From positions 1 to 20,150 of IMG/VR virus record IMGVR_UViG_3300045118_000383: DNA of 20,150 nucleotides. One strand, given 5' to 3'. The stretch is from a virus. Within the stretch, counting starts at the first letter, position 1, and each line of letters begins with the position of its first letter. Below are positions 1,601-20,071 of this stretch, piece by piece. The notes under the pieces are model-generated. The model made no database searches, had not been told where the DNA came from, and was given only the letters and a program-made list of their open reading frames with translations. Both the position numbers and the translations under genes were made by a program.

Positions 1601-2554
1601 TTATTTATAACTTCTTATTTCTGGTTGAATAATGGTGCTTAAATCTCGATCTCGATGACTCCAATAATCTAATATTCCTTGTTCATCCTGAGCAATTAAT
1701 TGAGCGAGGTTATTAGTCTGTCCTAACTTTTTTTCAACACAAAAAGGTAACGCAGCCATTCTTGCCAAATAAGGATGATGAATTACTGGGATACCAGGTT
1801 CTTTTGAAACTTTAATATATTTATGATTACCAGTCTGTGTACTAGTTGTATTAACTGCACTACCACCGATTGTTGTTGATACTTCAAAAGCATCAGCCGT
1901 TAAACCAGCTGAAATAACATAATAAACCACTGTATCCGCAGTTAAACCAGTCAATAATGTTCCATCAGTTTCTAAAATTAAAGCATCATTGACTGCTAAA
2001 CCATGTCCAGTTGCTGTAAAAACAGCCGGACTAGCTTGAGTAACAGTAAAAGATACAAAATTAAACTTCGATAATTCCCGATTAAGATAAGCCCTAAGAC
2101 CAGAAGTCTCAGAATAATTAGGGCAAGGATAAAGATAAATATAATCCCCCATTTTTATCCAACGACTTGGTATGCCAGTAATATCGGTTGTATAAGTCTC
2201 ATAAAAATCATTAAGATTATCAAATTCTTCTCTGACTAAATCATGCTCTATACCATTATCGTCTAAAACCGCTAATTTAAGGATTTGGTACACATTACTG
2301 GTAAAAGATGATATTTTATAATAATTCGTCCCAGAAACGATATTTTGCGTTTCTACGGGCAAGGAAGTATTATTTTCATCATCAAAAGTACCTTTAGGTG
2401 CGGCATTAGAAGCTAATTGCCAATATTTATCCATTGCCGCATTGACACGGGCAATAATTGATTTATTAGGATAAGCAGCACTTGTTGTCAAACCACAAAT
2501 CCTTAAAGTTTCATCAATTATTGAATCACTAAAAATTGGTTCATAAAGTTTCAT
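1601..2554 (-). CDS. Head-tail adaptor/connector protein with inserted beta domain
   Basis: The 317-residue protein has the look of phage adaptor (neck) proteins: a helical N-terminus with SIIARVNAAMDKYWQLAS (about 32-49), a beta core and the segment GIPSRWIKMGDYIYLYPCP (about 127-145), a pattern common in podovirus-like adaptors. Between about residues 165 and 250 lies a Thr/Gly-rich beta insertion (TATGHGLAVNDALIL, TGLTADTVVYYVISAGLTAD) resembling the E1-FCCH-like domain found in many phage structural proteins. The C-terminus returns to helices. It would sit between portal and tail in the virion. It is the first gene after the glycosyltransferase pair and is followed almost without gap by the neck/tail gene. 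The family call rests on motifs and gene order. Confidence 0.6.
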   Translation of the reverse strand: MKLYEPIFSDSIIDETLRICGLTTSAAYPNKSIIARVNAAMDKYWQLASNAAPKGTFDDENNTSLPVETQNIVSGTNYYKISSFTSNVYQILKLAVLDDNGIEHDLVREEFDNLNDFYETYTTDITGIPSRWIKMGDYIYLYPCPNYSETSGLRAYLNRELSKFNFVSFTVTQASPAVFTATGHGLAVNDALILETDGTLLTGLTADTVVYYVISAGLTADAFEVSTTIGGSAVNTTSTQTGNHKYIKVSKEPGIPVIHHPYLARMAALPFCVEKKLGQTNNLAQLIAQDEQGILDYWSHRDRDLSTIIQPEIRSYK

Positions 2555-7000: not shown

Positions 7001-8769
7001 AATTGTTGATTTTGCTGTTGATTCATTTGACCTTTACTCAAATTTTGTATTGGTACCGTTGAACTAACTGGTATTGGTTGAGCCTGTACTAGCGAAGGCG
7101 AAAACATAATTGGTGATAAACCAGAACTCTCCAAAATTGTATTTAATAACTTAGTCATTTCAGGGTCTTGTCTTAATTGAGGTGTAGCAATATATTGACG
7201 CAAAACATTAACTAACTTGTCAGTCAATAAAGAAAGATTCTTTTGCTTTCCCGCAATATTAGTAGAAACTGATAAACTAATATCTTTCATTTCATCTCTT
7301 AAGATTTGAAAAAATCTTTTATTACCTTGTTTAATAAAATCAGCTTTAACTTGCTCCTTGTAATCATTAACTAATTCTTCATTAATATCTTGCATTGATA
7401 AAATCATTCTTTTCTTAAAATCATTGGCTTCTAAAGTTAAAACCTTTTCCATCACCATCTGCATTTCATCAGCACTCAATTCTTGCATAAATGTTTGTTC
7501 TTTCACAATTTCACTAGATAAATGTGGTAATATCCAATCACGATAGATTTCATCCATAAATACTGCTAATTTACCCTGTCGATATTTATGCATTCCCTTA
7601 CCTTCAATCTGTTGAGCTTCATAAAGCTTAAAAGGTGTACCAGATGATGGCGCTTCTCCCATTAAAGCTTCAGGTGCTGATCCTAACATTTGAGCGTGTT
7701 GCCAAAACCTTTCAATACTATCATTAAAGACCCCTAAATTACGAGGAAAAGTATCTAATTGAGTAATAGTATTACCCTTATTTAAACTTAAAACTTGATT
7801 ATTAACGACGTTATTTAGATTATTTTTAGCTTTAAAAGATGGATCATCTGACCAATACAAAGTTTTAGAAGCAGCATTAAGCATTTCAGTCTTTTTAACT
7901 TCATCCCAATTAGTCCAAATTTGAGGTTCAAACAGTTCTTCTACTCCACCTCGTCCCAAAGCTCGATTTTGTATGTCATCACGCTTTAAAAATTTGAATG
8001 GTAATTCTGGCATTTCCTTTTTAAATAAGCAAACACCTTGCTTGTAGCTATTTGTATTTTTATAAAATGCTACTATTTGAATTTGATTAACGTCCTTACG
8101 ACTTTCATAGACATATTTTTCTTCATAATCAAGCCATTCAATCGGTAAAGAACCATGGACTTCATAAATATCAATACAATCTTTACTTTCTTTTTTAACT
8201 AACCTAATTAATGATTCAACATCAATATCAGAACCATTACCGCCCCAACCTCTACCTTTAGCCTCCCTACGTAATTCAGAAAAGCTCATCTTATGTAAAA
8301 TAGCAAAAGGATTATTTAATAAATCATTTTGATTACAAAACGCTAAACTTTTTAAATCAATAACTTCTGGCCTAGCCTGTTTAGTCTTTCTGACTAATAC
8401 TCCACCATAAGTGCAGTAACATTCAGTCATATCATCAATGAAAGTATCAATTTGATTTTCTACTGCCCATTTATCGTGATATTTCTTAATTAATAATGAT
8501 TTATAATATTCATCAGGATTATCAACATAAAGCTCAATATCTTTAACATCAAAACCTTCTGAGCGAAACTCAATATTTAAAATCGGTAAAACAATGTTTC
8601 TAAAAGGCCTTAACTTTCTATCATCATTATTCTCAGTAAATTGGCTATTAAGATACAAAAAAGTCTGCCTTAAATGCTCTTTCATTGACCAATACCAACC
8701 ATCAGCCAATTCCACTGGCTTTTGGTAATCTGCTTGTTGTTTAATAATGTAATCAAATATTGTTTCCAT
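6997..8769 (-). CDS. Portal protein
   Basis: A 590-residue protein two to four genes after the large terminase, with the size and layout of podovirus-like portals. The N-terminal third is mixed alpha/beta (WYWSMKEHLRQTFLYLNSQF; FRNIVLPILNIEFRSEGFDVKDIELYV). A middle region holds EVHGSLPIEWLDYEEKYVYE and LPFKFLKRDDIQNRALGRGGVEELFEPQIWTNWDEVKKTEM, a pattern common to portal wing/stem regions. The C-terminal part is long helices (LSADEMQMVMEKVLTLEANDFKKRM) ending in a Gln-rich tail (QNLSKGQMNQQQNQQL) that could form the barrel/crown. It would form the DNA-entry ring and bind terminase. A structured RNA element lies just upstream. Confidence 0.8.
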   Translation of the reverse strand: METIFDYIIKQQADYQKPVELADGWYWSMKEHLRQTFLYLNSQFTENNDDRKLRPFRNIVLPILNIEFRSEGFDVKDIELYVDNPDEYYKSLLIKKYHDKWAVENQIDTFIDDMTECYCTYGGVLVRKTKQARPEVIDLKSLAFCNQNDLLNNPFAILHKMSFSELRREAKGRGWGGNGSDIDVESLIRLVKKESKDCIDIYEVHGSLPIEWLDYEEKYVYESRKDVNQIQIVAFYKNTNSYKQGVCLFKKEMPELPFKFLKRDDIQNRALGRGGVEELFEPQIWTNWDEVKKTEMLNAASKTLYWSDDPSFKAKNNLNNVVNNQVLSLNKGNTITQLDTFPRNLGVFNDSIERFWQHAQMLGSAPEALMGEAPSSGTPFKLYEAQQIEGKGMHKYRQGKLAVFMDEIYRDWILPHLSSEIVKEQTFMQELSADEMQMVMEKVLTLEANDFKKRMILSMQDINEELVNDYKEQVKADFIKQGNKRFFQILRDEMKDISLSVSTNIAGKQKNLSLLTDKLVNVLRQYIATPQLRQDPEMTKLLNTILESSGLSPIMFSPSLVQAQPIPVSSTVPIQNLSKGQMNQQQNQQL

Positions 8770-8774
8770 AAAAA

Positions 8775-8871
8775 TAGGATGCCACAGTTTAGTAGCATCC
8801 TACCGATAATCAAGAGCTGTTCAGAACTTGATAGACCGGCCGGATGCTATCAAACTACGAACAGCTTTTTT
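8775..8871. promoter_or_regulatory. Two-hairpin structured element before the portal gene
   Basis: The 108-bp gap before the portal gene holds two clear stems. The first is an 8-bp stem TAGGATGC/GCATCCTA (8775-8782 with 8795-8802, 12-nt loop), eight bases before the portal start codon. The second is nested: AGCTGTTC/GAACAGCT (8815-8822 with 8859-8866) around TTGATAG/CTATCAA (8828-8834 with 8847-8853), capped by a 12-nt loop containing the palindrome CCGGCCGG. The loop also contains GGATG/CATCC, which could pair with the first stem in an alternative fold. On the plus strand the outer stem is followed by TTTTTT (8866-8871), so it may instead be a terminator for antisense transcription. Confidence 0.55.
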
Positions 8872-13766: not shown

Positions 13767-13869
13767 TTACTAATTATTGTTTATTTAGTAATCTAGCTTT
13801 GCGGATGGATTATATTGGGAACAGGATGCCTAACCTTTCGGTTAATTATACCCATACAATCCAATCCGC
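13767..13869 (-). promoter_or_regulatory. Long structured leader with GAAA tetraloop
   Basis: Between two genes lies a roughly 69-nt stem-loop: GCGGAT/ATCCGC, then GGATTGTAT/ATATAATCC (one G-U) and GGG/CCC, together about 18 bp from 13801-13819 with 13851-13869. It encloses a smaller hairpin TAACC-GAAA-GGTTA (minus strand) with a GNRA tetraloop. A second 7-bp stem (TTACTAA/TTAGTAA, 13767-13791) follows, near the start of the repeat gene. A GNRA loop in the sense orientation supports function as RNA. Confidence 0.5.
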
Positions 13870-13881
13870 CAAGTTAAATTA

Positions 13882-14540: not shown

Positions 14541-15125
14541 TTAAATAATTGACAATTCCTTTTCAACATCAATACCGCTTATCTCCTTAAATATTTCATT
14601 ATCCCAATTAGGTAAAGCCATCACTTTTTTCTTATCTTCTAAACTCGCCTTGTCCCAAGAATTTCTCCACGCAGACTTGTAAGAATAAAACTTTAAATAA
14701 CCGCCAATCGTAATATAACTAGGATGTGCTTCTTTTTCTTTATCCGTCATTTCTTCTTCGTCAATCCATTCCGTCAAATTAAAATAAAAGAAATTAGGAA
14801 ATGCTAAATTTTCCCTTTTAATATCAGTTTCTTTATTAAAAATAATTACTTTTGGCTCTATTGTGTTACAATAACCGGTGTTACAATTGCCGGTGTTCCA
14901 ATTGCCGGTGTTACAATTGCCGGTGTTACAATTGCCGGTGTTCCAATTGCCGGTGTTACAATAACCGGTGTTCCAATTGCCGGTGTTACGATTGCCGGTG
15001 TTACAATAACCGGTGTTCCAATAACCGGTGTTACGATAACCGGTGTTACAATTGCCGGTGTTACGATTGCCGGTGTTACGATAACCGGTGTTACAATTGC
15101 CGGTGTTACAATTTTTTTCTTTCAT
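14541..15125 (-). CDS. Pentapeptide-repeat protein with conserved C-terminal domain
   Basis: The first 90 residues of this 194-residue protein are about 16 tandem units of N-T-G-[NY]-[CRW]. This matches the NxGxx type of pentapeptide repeat rather than the ADLxx type. The C-terminal domain (about 95-194) has ALPNWD-type, WIDEEEMTDKEKEAHPSY and GGYLKFYSYKSAWRNSW segments, which I recall following such repeats in many phage proteins. Pentapeptide repeats often form a right-handed beta helix; cysteines at every few units could be stacked on one face. Function is unknown; DNA mimicry and structural roles are options. No export signal is seen. Confidence 0.8.
   Translation of the reverse strand: MKEKNCNTGNCNTGYRNTGNRNTGNCNTGYRNTGYWNTGYCNTGNRNTGNWNTGYCNTGNWNTGNCNTGNCNTGNWNTGNCNTGYCNTIEPKVIIFNKETDIKRENLAFPNFFYFNLTEWIDEEEMTDKEKEAHPSYITIGGYLKFYSYKSAWRNSWDKASLEDKKKVMALPNWDNEIFKEISGIDVEKELSII
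14862..15112 (-). repeat. 15-bp tandem repeats encoding NTGxx units
   Basis: About 16 copies of a 15-bp unit based on ccggtgttacaattg (plus strand) with a small set of variants: tac/tcc/tacg in the Cys/Trp/Arg codon and attg/ataa for Asn/Tyr. Variation is confined to the two exposed positions of the peptide repeat while NTG codons are constant. Long identical blocks favour slippage and copy-number change. Confidence 0.95.
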
Positions 15126-17252: not shown

Positions 17253-17479
17253 CCCCCCTTTTCTCCCCCCATATCTAATTATTGAGGGAAAATTGGTTAG
17301 CATATGTATTAGGTATTAGCTAGTTAGTTCCTAGTTTCTCCATTCCCTAGATGTCCTAGCACTTTCTGATATTTAAATGGGGGTTTCCTGTTGTCAGGGG
17401 GGACGACAGAGCAGGAAATTTTGATCTAAATACCAGACAAGTTAATTTTGGCGGGGCAGTTTTTCACAAGCCTCCCCCG
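17253..17479 (-). promoter_or_regulatory. G-run/C-run leader of the middle gene cluster
   Basis: Sense-strand G6 runs at 17270-17265 and 17258-17253 form the RBS region of the gene starting at 17240. Upstream, the same strand carries C5 (17383-17379) and C6 (17402-17397); the C6 lies in the loop of a 12-bp hairpin (17384-17395 with 17405-17418, bulged). A further 5-bp CGGGG/CCCCG pair joins 17452-17456 with 17475-17479. The C-runs could pair with the G-runs and hide the RBS. I see no convincing promoter in this stretch. Confidence 0.45.
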
Positions 17480-17501
17480 AGACGCTTGATACCTAAATTG
17501 T

Positions 17502-17526
17502 AAAAAACCAACTAAAAAATAGTTGG
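17502..17526 (-). terminator. Intrinsic terminator of the right-hand operon
   Basis: On the minus strand CCAACTA-TTTTT-TAGTTGG (7-bp perfect stem, 17526-17508) is followed by TTTTTT (17507-17502). It lies about 190 nt after the 3D-domain gene stop, so it ends the transcription unit begun at the 19590 promoter. Confidence 0.85.
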
Positions 17527-17603
17527 AATTATTAAAATCTCAATTAAATTAGTTATTTTTTCCATAATGACAAGCTCTAATTATGGTTTTAATTAATTCT
17601 TCC

Positions 17604-17707
17604 TAACCCACCAGTAAGCCACTAGCTACCGCTTTTGGCTTTCACAAGAAAGGGGTCTAGTCACTTTACAACCTAAGAGTGAATAGAAGGAACAGACTGG
17701 CGGGTTA
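17604..17707 (-). ncRNA. Candidate 104-nt branched RNA element in the 3' region
   Basis: The ends pair over 12 positions with one mismatch (17604-17615 with 17696-17707). Inside are an ACTAG/CTAGT stem (17621-17625 with 17657-17661) enclosing a 5-bp hairpin (17639-17643 with 17648-17652) and a hairpin TCACTTT/AAGAGTGA (17661-17667 with 17675-17682, one bulge), giving a three-way junction. It begins seven bases after the 3D gene stop; another 7-bp hairpin (17562-17586) and the terminator follow. This fits a 3'-UTR-derived small RNA. No known RNA family is recognised. Confidence 0.45.
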
Positions 17708-17714
17708 AAAACAA

Positions 17715-18212
17715 CTAATCTAAAATAATTACTTGTAATTGTTTAACTCCCCAATTTTTAGCACCCTGTAAATCCTTATCAAACGAAACATCTATCCTGT
17801 GATCATACTTAGAAGCTAATCTATCTAGGCAAGTATAAGTCTTGCCATTAATCACAAATTTAGTTCCAAGTTTATATTGCCTTGAACAGGCCACAACATC
17901 ATTTCTGCCGCAGATATTATCACCAGAAGCGGCAATACAAGGACTTGAGTCTGTCTGCTCCGGGACTGTATTATAGGCTGAAATTTCAAATACTTTTTCG
18001 TTAGGACAGACAACTGATTCGAGCAGACAAGGATTATCAGCAGATAGCGGCGGGTCTGAAACCACATTTCTGTCAAAGGTTATTTCCTTTGCACCGCTAG
18101 AAGCTGCCACTCCTTTAGTATTTAACCCATAGGAAAGGTATGATAAGACTAAACTGATAATGATAATTCCATAGACTCCCGAATAACTAATTTTGTTTTT
18201 GTTTTTGTCCAT
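17715..18212 (-). CDS. Membrane-anchored 3D-domain cell-wall lytic enzyme
   Basis: A 165-residue protein with an N-terminal transmembrane or signal segment (about 13-30, YGIIIISLVLSYLSYGL) and a 3D domain at about 75-165. The domain shows FEISAYNTVPEQTDSSPCIAASG, the basic ACSRQYKLGTKF turn, CLDRLASKYDHRIDVSF and a terminal VIILD strand, with Asp88, Asp130 and Asp141 as the conserved acids. 3D domains are double-psi beta barrels related to the MltA lytic transglycosylase core and act on peptidoglycan. The cysteine pairs C92/C101 and C109/C128 suit an extracytoplasmic fold. It could be the endolysin or an entry enzyme; the anchor favours action from the membrane's outer side. Confidence 0.8.
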   Translation of the reverse strand: MDKNKNKISYSGVYGIIIISLVLSYLSYGLNTKGVAASSGAKEITFDRNVVSDPPLSADNPCLLESVVCPNEKVFEISAYNTVPEQTDSSPCIAASGDNICGRNDVVACSRQYKLGTKFVINGKTYTCLDRLASKYDHRIDVSFDKDLQGAKNWGVKQLQVIILD

Positions 18213-18358: not shown

Positions 18359-19042
18359 TTATTTTCCCTCCTGCGCTATTAAACTTTTAATCATTTCTGA
18401 AGCATCTTGAGAAGTTAAGGTTTTTTCATCAAAAACTACTGGGCAATTTTTTTCAGTTGATAATTTGTTAATCAGATTCACTTGGGCTTTGCTGGCTAGT
18501 CTTTTCACTAGAGTAGATTCTTTAACTGTTTTATTCTCTTTACCGCTAAATTCATTGCCGGCAAATGGCTCAGTTTCTATAATTTCTTCGGCTGGTGTGG
18601 CCTCTACTCCGGCTAAAACCGCTACAAAGCCGAAAATTGACCGCAGAGCCTTACTCATTGCCCTTGTTTGCGCCATTGAACGCACTTGAAAGCTAGGCTT
18701 ACCTACCCAATTTCTTTCGTCAGCCATACAGGCTGCTTCCGCCCCGCCGATAGTAATACCATCCTGATAAACTACGGCCTTTGCCTCCCAGCCAATTATT
18801 GTATCTTTAGCCATTATTGGCTTAGTCCATTCAATCCCGACAGTCGCCCTAAAAAATCGAGCAATCGTCTGCCAATGTTCAAAATAAAGATAGCGTTTGC
18901 CATTCATTGTCAATGGTTTAGTGGCATCAATCACTGTCATTAATGCCTTAGCCGCCATTTGAGCATTAACTACATCTTTTTCGGGATCAAATTGCTTGAC
19001 CGCCGTTGGTGGCGCAGAGATAATTTCTAAATCTTTGTCCAT
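18359..19042 (-). CDS. Conserved phage protein, possible ssDNA annealing/recombination role
   Basis: A 227-residue protein with an alpha/beta core (about 20-150) ending in RSMAQTRAMSKALRSIFGFVAVLAGVEATPAEE. This MAQTRAxSKALR...LAGxxATPAEE motif is one I recall from many phage proteins near recombination genes, but I cannot attach a proven function. A variable linker (about 155-180) leads to a small C-terminal module (ASKAQVNLINKLSTEKNC...LTSQDASEMIKSLI) of the 'ASxxQxxxIxxL...LTxxxASxxI' type found at the ends of unrelated phage proteins. Substrate and partner are unknown; single-strand annealing is a guess from context. Confidence 0.6.
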   Translation of the reverse strand: MDKDLEIISAPPTAVKQFDPEKDVVNAQMAAKALMTVIDATKPLTMNGKRYLYFEHWQTIARFFRATVGIEWTKPIMAKDTIIGWEAKAVVYQDGITIGGAEAACMADERNWVGKPSFQVRSMAQTRAMSKALRSIFGFVAVLAGVEATPAEEIIETEPFAGNEFSGKENKTVKESTLVKRLASKAQVNLINKLSTEKNCPVVFDEKTLTSQDASEMIKSLIAQEGK

Positions 19043-19063: not shown

Positions 19064-19276
19064 CTAAGACAGACTAGACTTAAGTTTATTAGCTTGGTAT
19101 CGTTCTTCTACCTGTAATCTGAAATCATAATCCTGTTTTTCTTCATCAGTCATATCATTGGCAGGATAATGATTGTCACATTGTTCGTCTTCGTATTGGT
19201 GAAATTTGTCGTAAATCATATGATTTTTTATTAAGTCCGGTAGCGTTTTGGCCGGAATTTGTTTCCTTAACGGCAT
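19064..19276 (-). CDS. 70-residue acidic protein, function unknown
   Basis: A small charged protein (MPLRKQIPAKTLPDLIKNHMIYDKFHQYEDEQCDNHYPANDMTDEEKQDYDFRLQVEERYQANKLKSSLS), with a helical C-terminus. It is the first gene after the attenuated leader; its ATG is about 170 nt downstream of the leader terminator, so its expression depends on readthrough. No family is recognised. Confidence 0.55.
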   Translation of the reverse strand: MPLRKQIPAKTLPDLIKNHMIYDKFHQYEDEQCDNHYPANDMTDEEKQDYDFRLQVEERYQANKLKSSLS

Positions 19277-19556
19277 TTTGGCTTCCTGACTGCTATCACT
19301 TTTCAGTGGTCATTGTCGCCAATAGCTTTAGAGAGACCGCATTAATTGCTTACTAAATGAGGCAACCAATCAGCTAAAAGCCAATTTTGAAGTGTAAAGA
19401 TGGTGTCGCACACGGTTGCCTCTTTCAATAAGCAATTTATAAAAATCACCACCTTATAGGTGGTGTCATTGTAAGCCTTTGTATTGGCTAGGTTGACTTG
19501 TCCACAGTATATTTTGGCTTATTTTAGCCAAGATATATTGTGCGACTCCACCTATA
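19277..19556 (-). promoter_or_regulatory. Attenuator-like 280-nt structured leader
   Basis: No gene is seen here. The expected transcript starts near 19555 with ATAGGTGG, complementary to the terminator's 5' arm (minus 19463-19456); adding one base gives TATAGGTGG/CCACCTATA. The next bases GTCGCACA (19546-19539) are complementary to TGTGCGAC (19412-19405), which sits in the loop of a long hairpin: AATTGCTTA/TAAGCAATT (19344-19352 with 19429-19437), a symmetric 6-nt internal loop, and GAGGCAACC/GGTTGCCTC (19359-19367 with 19414-19422). A TTGGCT/AGCCAA hairpin lies at 19514-19531 and a GAAA-capped stem at about 19291-19326. Confidence 0.6.
19441..19465 (-). terminator. Leader terminator (attenuation site)
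   Basis: Minus strand CACCACCT-ATA-AGGTGGTG, an 8-bp perfect stem, followed by ATTTTT. It lies about 100 nt downstream of the predicted start and before any gene of the operon, so full expression needs antitermination. Transcripts ending here would form a small RNA of about 110 nt. Confidence 0.75.
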
Positions 19557-19561
19557 TATTT

Positions 19562-19590
19562 AGTATAGCGCACTTAAAAAAGATTGTCAA
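19562..19590 (-). promoter_or_regulatory. Sigma70-type promoter
   Basis: Perfect -35 TTGACA (19590-19585), a 17-bp spacer and -10 TATACT (19567-19562). It overlaps the last codons of the gene ending at 19574 and would start transcripts near 19555, at the head of the structured leader. Confidence 0.8.
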
Positions 19591-19939: not shown

Positions 19940-19974
19940 CCGCCGTCCTCACCAAGAGGAACGGCGGCTTTTTT
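19940..19974 (+). terminator. Strong plus-strand terminator-like hairpin in a minus-strand leader
   Basis: CCGCCGT/ACGGCGG (19940-19946 with 19961-19967) around CCTC/GAGG with loop ACCAA, one bulged A, then C and TTTTTT on the plus strand. All genes here run the other way, so either it blocks antisense transcription or the hairpin serves the minus-strand leader. The segment TCTTGGTGA (plus 20036-20044) is complementary to TCACCAAGA (19949-19957), which includes the loop, so a loop-leader pairing is possible. Confidence 0.6.
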
Positions 19975-20071
19975 ATAATAGCATTTTTAGCTAAAACCAG
20001 CTACAAAATACCGCTACCCATAAGGTAATACCCTATCTTGGTGAAGGTTGCGCTATATTGAACCTACTTTG

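Follow-up and report, generated by a model that had tools for sequence, protein, structure and literature searches.

In the lambdoid phages, the Q-dependent pR'-tR' region and the N/nut systems present a promoter and then a terminator before any gene, with the production of a short RNA, and Q or N is required. Attenuators and riboswitch expression platforms are located before genes and contain an early helix that shares a strand with the terminator, with two mutually exclusive folds of similar energy. The C4 RNA of P1 and P4 is a short structured RNA at the operon start, complementary to its own downstream leader. In HK022, the put RNA is a 5' element of the early transcript that makes readthrough possible without a dedicated phage protein. 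It has about 70 nt in two stem-loops and binds the zinc-binding domain of the RNA polymerase beta' subunit, and putL is located just after the early promoter (PMC9378689). The leader described here resembles the attenuators, C4 and put in the exclusive folds, the downstream complement and the 5' position in an early transcript, respectively, and pR'-tR' in its promoter, terminator and short RNA before any gene.

The window analysed in this work is a whole virus record of 20,150 bases, a phage fragment in which all the recognised genes are on the minus strand. Their products include a terminase, a putative portal protein, glycosyltransferase-like proteins and nuclease-type proteins (NUMOD3-type and VRR-NUC). 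The searches for tRNA and tmRNA found none, and among the genes examined no integrase, repressor or other lysogeny gene was recognised and no N-like protein was noticed. The likely transcription start, A19555, was taken from the promoter spacing, and transcript nt n corresponds to window position 19556-n. The leader thus defined has 279 nt, from A19555 to the first start codon at 19276 (Table 1).

Table 1. Coordinates of the early leader, of the site before the putative portal gene, and of the leader RNA in two related loci
Feature	Positions	Strand	Remarks
Sigma70-type promoter, TTGACA-17-TATACT	19562..19590	-	11/12 consensus
P1 antiterminator, 5' strand, nt 1-8, AUAGGUGG	19548..19555	-	Putative start; exact complement of 19463-19456
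Long-range contact, 5' strand, nt 3-17, AGGUGGAGUCGCACA	19539..19553	-	
Helix P2, long imperfect hairpin, nt 10-56	19500..19546	-	From folding; present in both main states
Helper helix P1', 3' strand, ACCUA, nt 63-67	19489..19493	-	Predicted; pairs with UAGGU (nt 2-6)
Helix P3, nt 59-91	19465..19497	-	Predicted; joins P1 in a three-way junction
Intrinsic terminator, hairpin (nt 91-109) and U-tract, CACCACCTATAAGGTGGTG + ATTTTT	19441..19465	-	5' arm overlaps P1 3' strand (19463-19456)
Long hairpin, 94 nt, nt 119-212	19344..19437	-	-38.8 kcal/mol; made only on readthrough
Apical part of long hairpin, nt 144-158, UGUGCGACACCAUCU	19398..19412	-	Complementary to nt 3-17
First downstream gene, 70 aa	19064..19276	-	No known family
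Second early gene, 227 aa, putative single-strand annealing protein	18359..19042	-	Putative annotation; phrog_19042, unknown function
Hairpin A, 5' hairpin of second site	8815..8866	-	Segment 8856-8842 is the antiterminator 5' strand
Second-site antiterminator, 3' strand, GGAUGCUACUAAACU	8786..8800	-	Overlaps terminator 5' arm
Second-site terminator, hairpin and U-tract	8770..8804	-	Directly before putative portal ATG (8769)
Leader RNA of relative L002	1058-1165	+	Conserved GGTTGGTCTGTA...CAGGTCAGCC core
Leader RNA of relative L059	5978-6101	+	Conserved GGTTGGTCTGTA...CAGGTCAGCC core

Other structured or repetitive regions were observed in the record. A strong terminator, CCGCCGTCCTC...GAGGAACGGCGG CTTTTTT, is present at 19940-19975 (+) with no evident plus-strand gene nearby. 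Two long intergenic hairpins, at 13771-13880 (-) and 17330-17730 (-), are strongly folded and lack terminators of the same kind; they may be RNase III sites or additional RNA elements. Repeat-rich open frames occur at 14541-15125 (-) and, in the related phage L002, at 7837-8203 (+) (NTGN-type and GAG/SGSW-type).

A preliminary description of this DNA had proposed that a terminator stands between a consensus promoter and the first gene and that the start of the transcript is complementary to the 5' arm and loop of this terminator. Every sequence element that it named is present in the leader. The promoter is the top scorer on the coding strand of the record, the terminator is the top-scoring one on its strand and lies upstream of any gene, and nt 1-8 are perfectly complementary to its 5' arm and loop. 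An 8-nt match between the first 12 nt and the terminator arm appeared in 0.02% of shuffled sequences (0.0002), and a match of this length anywhere in the 90-nt leader in 0.8% (0.008). Only five perfect Watson-Crick helices of at least 8 bp exist in the 279-nt leader, among them AUAGGUGG/CCACCUAU, the terminator and GUCGCACA/UGUGCGAC.

The leader region ranked first for folding strength in a scan of the whole 20-kb record, with z scores against shuffles of -6.3 for the first 115 nt and -7.1 for the 279 nt (-6 to -8 overall). All folds are equilibrium calculations, not kinetic ones, and at equilibrium the terminator wins; at the terminator, its state and the P1 antiterminator state are 2-3 kcal/mol apart. 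In folds of the growing transcript, P1' appears at 68-92 nt, P1 with the weak predicted helix P3 at 98-107 nt, and the terminator with P1' from about 108 nt, followed by the long-range contact at 155-190 nt and lastly by the 94-nt hairpin. P1' keeps the 5' end when the terminator has formed (predicted pairing probability of 0.99 for transcripts of 68-80 nt, and of 0.94 for 110 nt); because it has 5 bp, its evidence is weak on its own. At equilibrium the long-range contact yields upon closing of the long hairpin. A translation-coupled attenuation through a mini-ORF (AUG at 19469, MTPPIRW and a stop codon, AAAGG upstream) was set aside, since its AUG emerges only when the polymerase reaches the terminator; no comparable mini-ORF was seen in the L002 leader.

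The competition for the terminator arm was compared among 63 intergenic terminators from about 65 phage loci, this record included (61 others). Only the two coding-strand terminators of the record showed an upstream pairing of the 5' arm beyond all shuffles (z -5.3 and -4.4, n=63), while the next-best of the 63 had a p of 0.04. Competitors of 8 nt were found for both terminators here (2/2) against 1/41 in controls, and for none in the other relatives. A promoter-pattern scan gave 45 matches, mostly in unrelated phages with ordinary leaders, and these were used as a control.

The second of these terminators, the one other clear coding-strand intergenic terminator of the record, is the latter of a pair of long hairpins that lie between two genes of the structural region, at 8877-8769 (-). 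The upper part of hairpin A is complementary to its 5' arm, in a core of 8 nt that reaches about 15 nt if one mismatch is allowed. The predicted folding order is hairpin A, then the antiterminator (probability near 1 at 84-100 nt), and then the terminator together with hairpin A. No strong promoter is adjacent to this site, and the putative portal gene has no clear ribosome-binding site.

These results bear on another view of the early leader, in which it is a small-RNA gene, with a promoter, a structured RNA of 115 nt and an ordinary terminator, whose product acts in trans and whose arm overlap is incidental. The unit is indeed compact and its fold is very stable. However, competitors of a terminator arm are rare elsewhere and yet occur both here and at the portal site, which lacks an adjacent strong promoter; the best target of the 5' end in the record is in its own leader, and the leader lies directly upstream of the early genes. 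We consider a small-RNA gene improbable.

A close homologue of the 279-nt leader was found neither in the phage collection nor in the viral contig and genome-collection searches, and the exact terminator sequence was absent from the viral contigs. A protein search with the 70-aa first gene gave no match, and the genome-collection scans returned no annealing protein. The 227-aa early protein, on the other hand, led to 25 related loci, the nearest being L002 and L058 (54% identity) and L059 (51%); L059 also has a terminase, and a portal protein that is 27% identical. The other annealing-protein relatives are mostly GC-rich and without a comparable early leader.

Where their early gene block begins, L002 (G001) and L059 (G004) have a leader RNA that is clearly homologous between the two (77% mean column identity) and for which Rfam gave no match. 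This RNA is preceded by an extended -10 promoter (TGCTATACT, TGGTATAAT), and its 3' end is formed by a terminator and a U-tract. Its 5' strand, CCUGCUAC or CCUGUUAGA (CCUGYUA-type), pairs with GUAGCAGG or UCUAACAGG within the terminator hairpin. Eight pairs persist in the antiterminator helix of both RNAs, two of which are preserved through compensatory substitutions (CG to TA and CG to GC), and the terminator stem has further compensated pairs. For both relatives, folding predicts that the antiterminator arises first and then gives way to the terminator. The linker of a few nucleotides would not span the full terminator stem, and the antiterminator and terminator folds would therefore be mutually exclusive. 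A covariance model (R1) built from the two relatives finds both of them and not the leader of the window; therefore, the shared feature is the place and the logic, not the sequence. In a motif scan for this RNA only the two known members were convincing. A second promoter (12/12) was also observed in L002, at 1679-2060 (+); in its transcript, nt 13-26 are complementary to nt 220-233 (14 bp), and nt 1-10 are complementary to the second gene's Shine-Dalgarno region.

Taken with the comparison of terminators and the second site, this covarying positional analogue upholds the terminator and antiterminator reading. The device is probably a cis-acting transcription attenuator in the early operon leader, and it looks like a real RNA switch because the same stop-or-go design recurs upstream of the putative portal gene and, in two relatives, in the leader of the early genes.

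The role of the contact beyond the terminator can be read in two ways. The preliminary description had matched 8 bases, adjacent to the antiterminator strand, to the loop of the 94-nt hairpin. These 8 bases are present, but one A separates them from the antiterminator strand, and the 8-nt GUCGCACA match is not significant by itself, as a match of 8 nt to some downstream position arises in 25% of shuffles. It is part of a longer duplex, nt 3-17 with nt 144-158, in which 14/15 positions are paired with one mismatch and one G-U (-22.5 kcal/mol; shuffle p of about 0.001, or 0.01 with the look-elsewhere correction). Apart from the DNA complement of the 5' end itself, nt 144-158 are its best target in the record. 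About 17 kcal/mol must be spent to open both partners, for a gain of 21; the contact is therefore possible but marginal after the long hairpin closes. The contact may serve for capture of the 5' end after readthrough or for antisense control by the terminated RNA. The 94-nt hairpin itself would be a candidate RNase III site; it is crossed by a putative open frame of 36 codons with a GTG start (19452-19342, -).

Antisense control could by itself account for the locus if, as with the C4 RNA of P1 and P4, the terminated RNA accumulated and its 5' end bound other nascent leaders at nt 144-158, so that early expression fell. The extent and rank of this complementarity point in that direction, as does the 14-bp pairing in the second leader of L002. 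The cost of opening the partners weighs against it, as do the missing Rfam C4 match, the position of the complement within the terminator itself in the L002 and L059 terminator leaders, and the genes examined, in which no integrase or repressor was recognised. Besides, the leader differs from C4 in that its complement is in a long hairpin. This autoregulation is less probable again than a small-RNA gene.

The preliminary description had likened the leader to the put-type RNAs, which would bind the RNA polymerase and confer resistance to this and later terminators. Like putL, the leader stands just after an early promoter, at the structured 5' end of the transcript, and the neighbouring stem-loops P2 and P3 precede the terminator. 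The analogy was not supported in the comparisons: blastn against the phage collection, HK022 included, gave no match to put, nor did the leader resemble any phage record there; P3 is weak, and the elements of L002 and L059 are not two adjacent stem-loops. Moreover, the terminator would be blocked by direct base pairing, and competition for its arm is not a feature of put. A put-like RNA thus appears very improbable. Least probable of all is chance complementarity in an ordinary leader and terminator, which the frequency of 8-nt GUCGCACA matches and the single record would allow, but both coding-strand intergenic terminators of the record beat all shuffles, an ordered three-state fold exists at both sites and compensatory changes occur in the relatives.

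The attenuator proposed here also departs from the other described systems. Unlike pR'-tR' and N/nut, its RNA folds explain the competition without Q or N, and no similarity of the leader to lambdoid phages was found. Unlike classical attenuators and riboswitches, it has no known aptamer or leader peptide, its antiterminator strand is the first 8 nt, it serves a phage early operon and it has the extra 5'-end contact beyond the terminator. The Rfam search of the leader gave nothing at the gathering threshold, the weak matches being eukaryotic snoRNA and miRNA models, and no known riboswitch or T-box family matched. The view that no family has this layout was therefore right as to Rfam, but its logic is that of a classical attenuator. 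In the open-licence literature, no description of such a device was found.

As the RNA of this attenuator emerges, the 5' end would pair first with nt 63-67 (P1') and then with the new 5' arm of the terminator (P1), forming the antiterminator and closing the three-way junction with P2 and P3. Once the 3' arm is out, the terminator hairpin and P1' would be favoured by about 2-3 kcal/mol, and transcription would stop near nt 115 unless something keeps P1 in place, be it a protein or ligand that binds or the speed of the RNA polymerase. If the polymerase passes, nt 144-158 of the next hairpin could capture the 5' end and the early genes would be transcribed. Entry into the putative portal gene would be governed by the same logic. 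Judged from the sequence, transcription would probably terminate by default near nt 115, in part or in full; the start site, the occurrence of termination or readthrough, any trigger and the function of the contact downstream are likewise what we infer from it.

To our knowledge, proteins (N, Q) and a single RNA (put) account for most of what is known of antitermination in phages. A wider proposal, speculative and rather improbable, is that the early and structural operons of a group of uncultivated phages are under RNA switches that diverge rapidly and hand the 5' end on from the helper helix to the antiterminator, the terminator and the downstream capture site, and that the nascent RNA alone antiterminates without a dedicated N, Q or put-type factor. 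The leader is a small system suited to in vitro testing. If the early and portal genes of this phage do both lie behind base-pairing switches, with a separate RNA of like logic in its relatives, attenuation by RNA folding may be a general layer of phage control.
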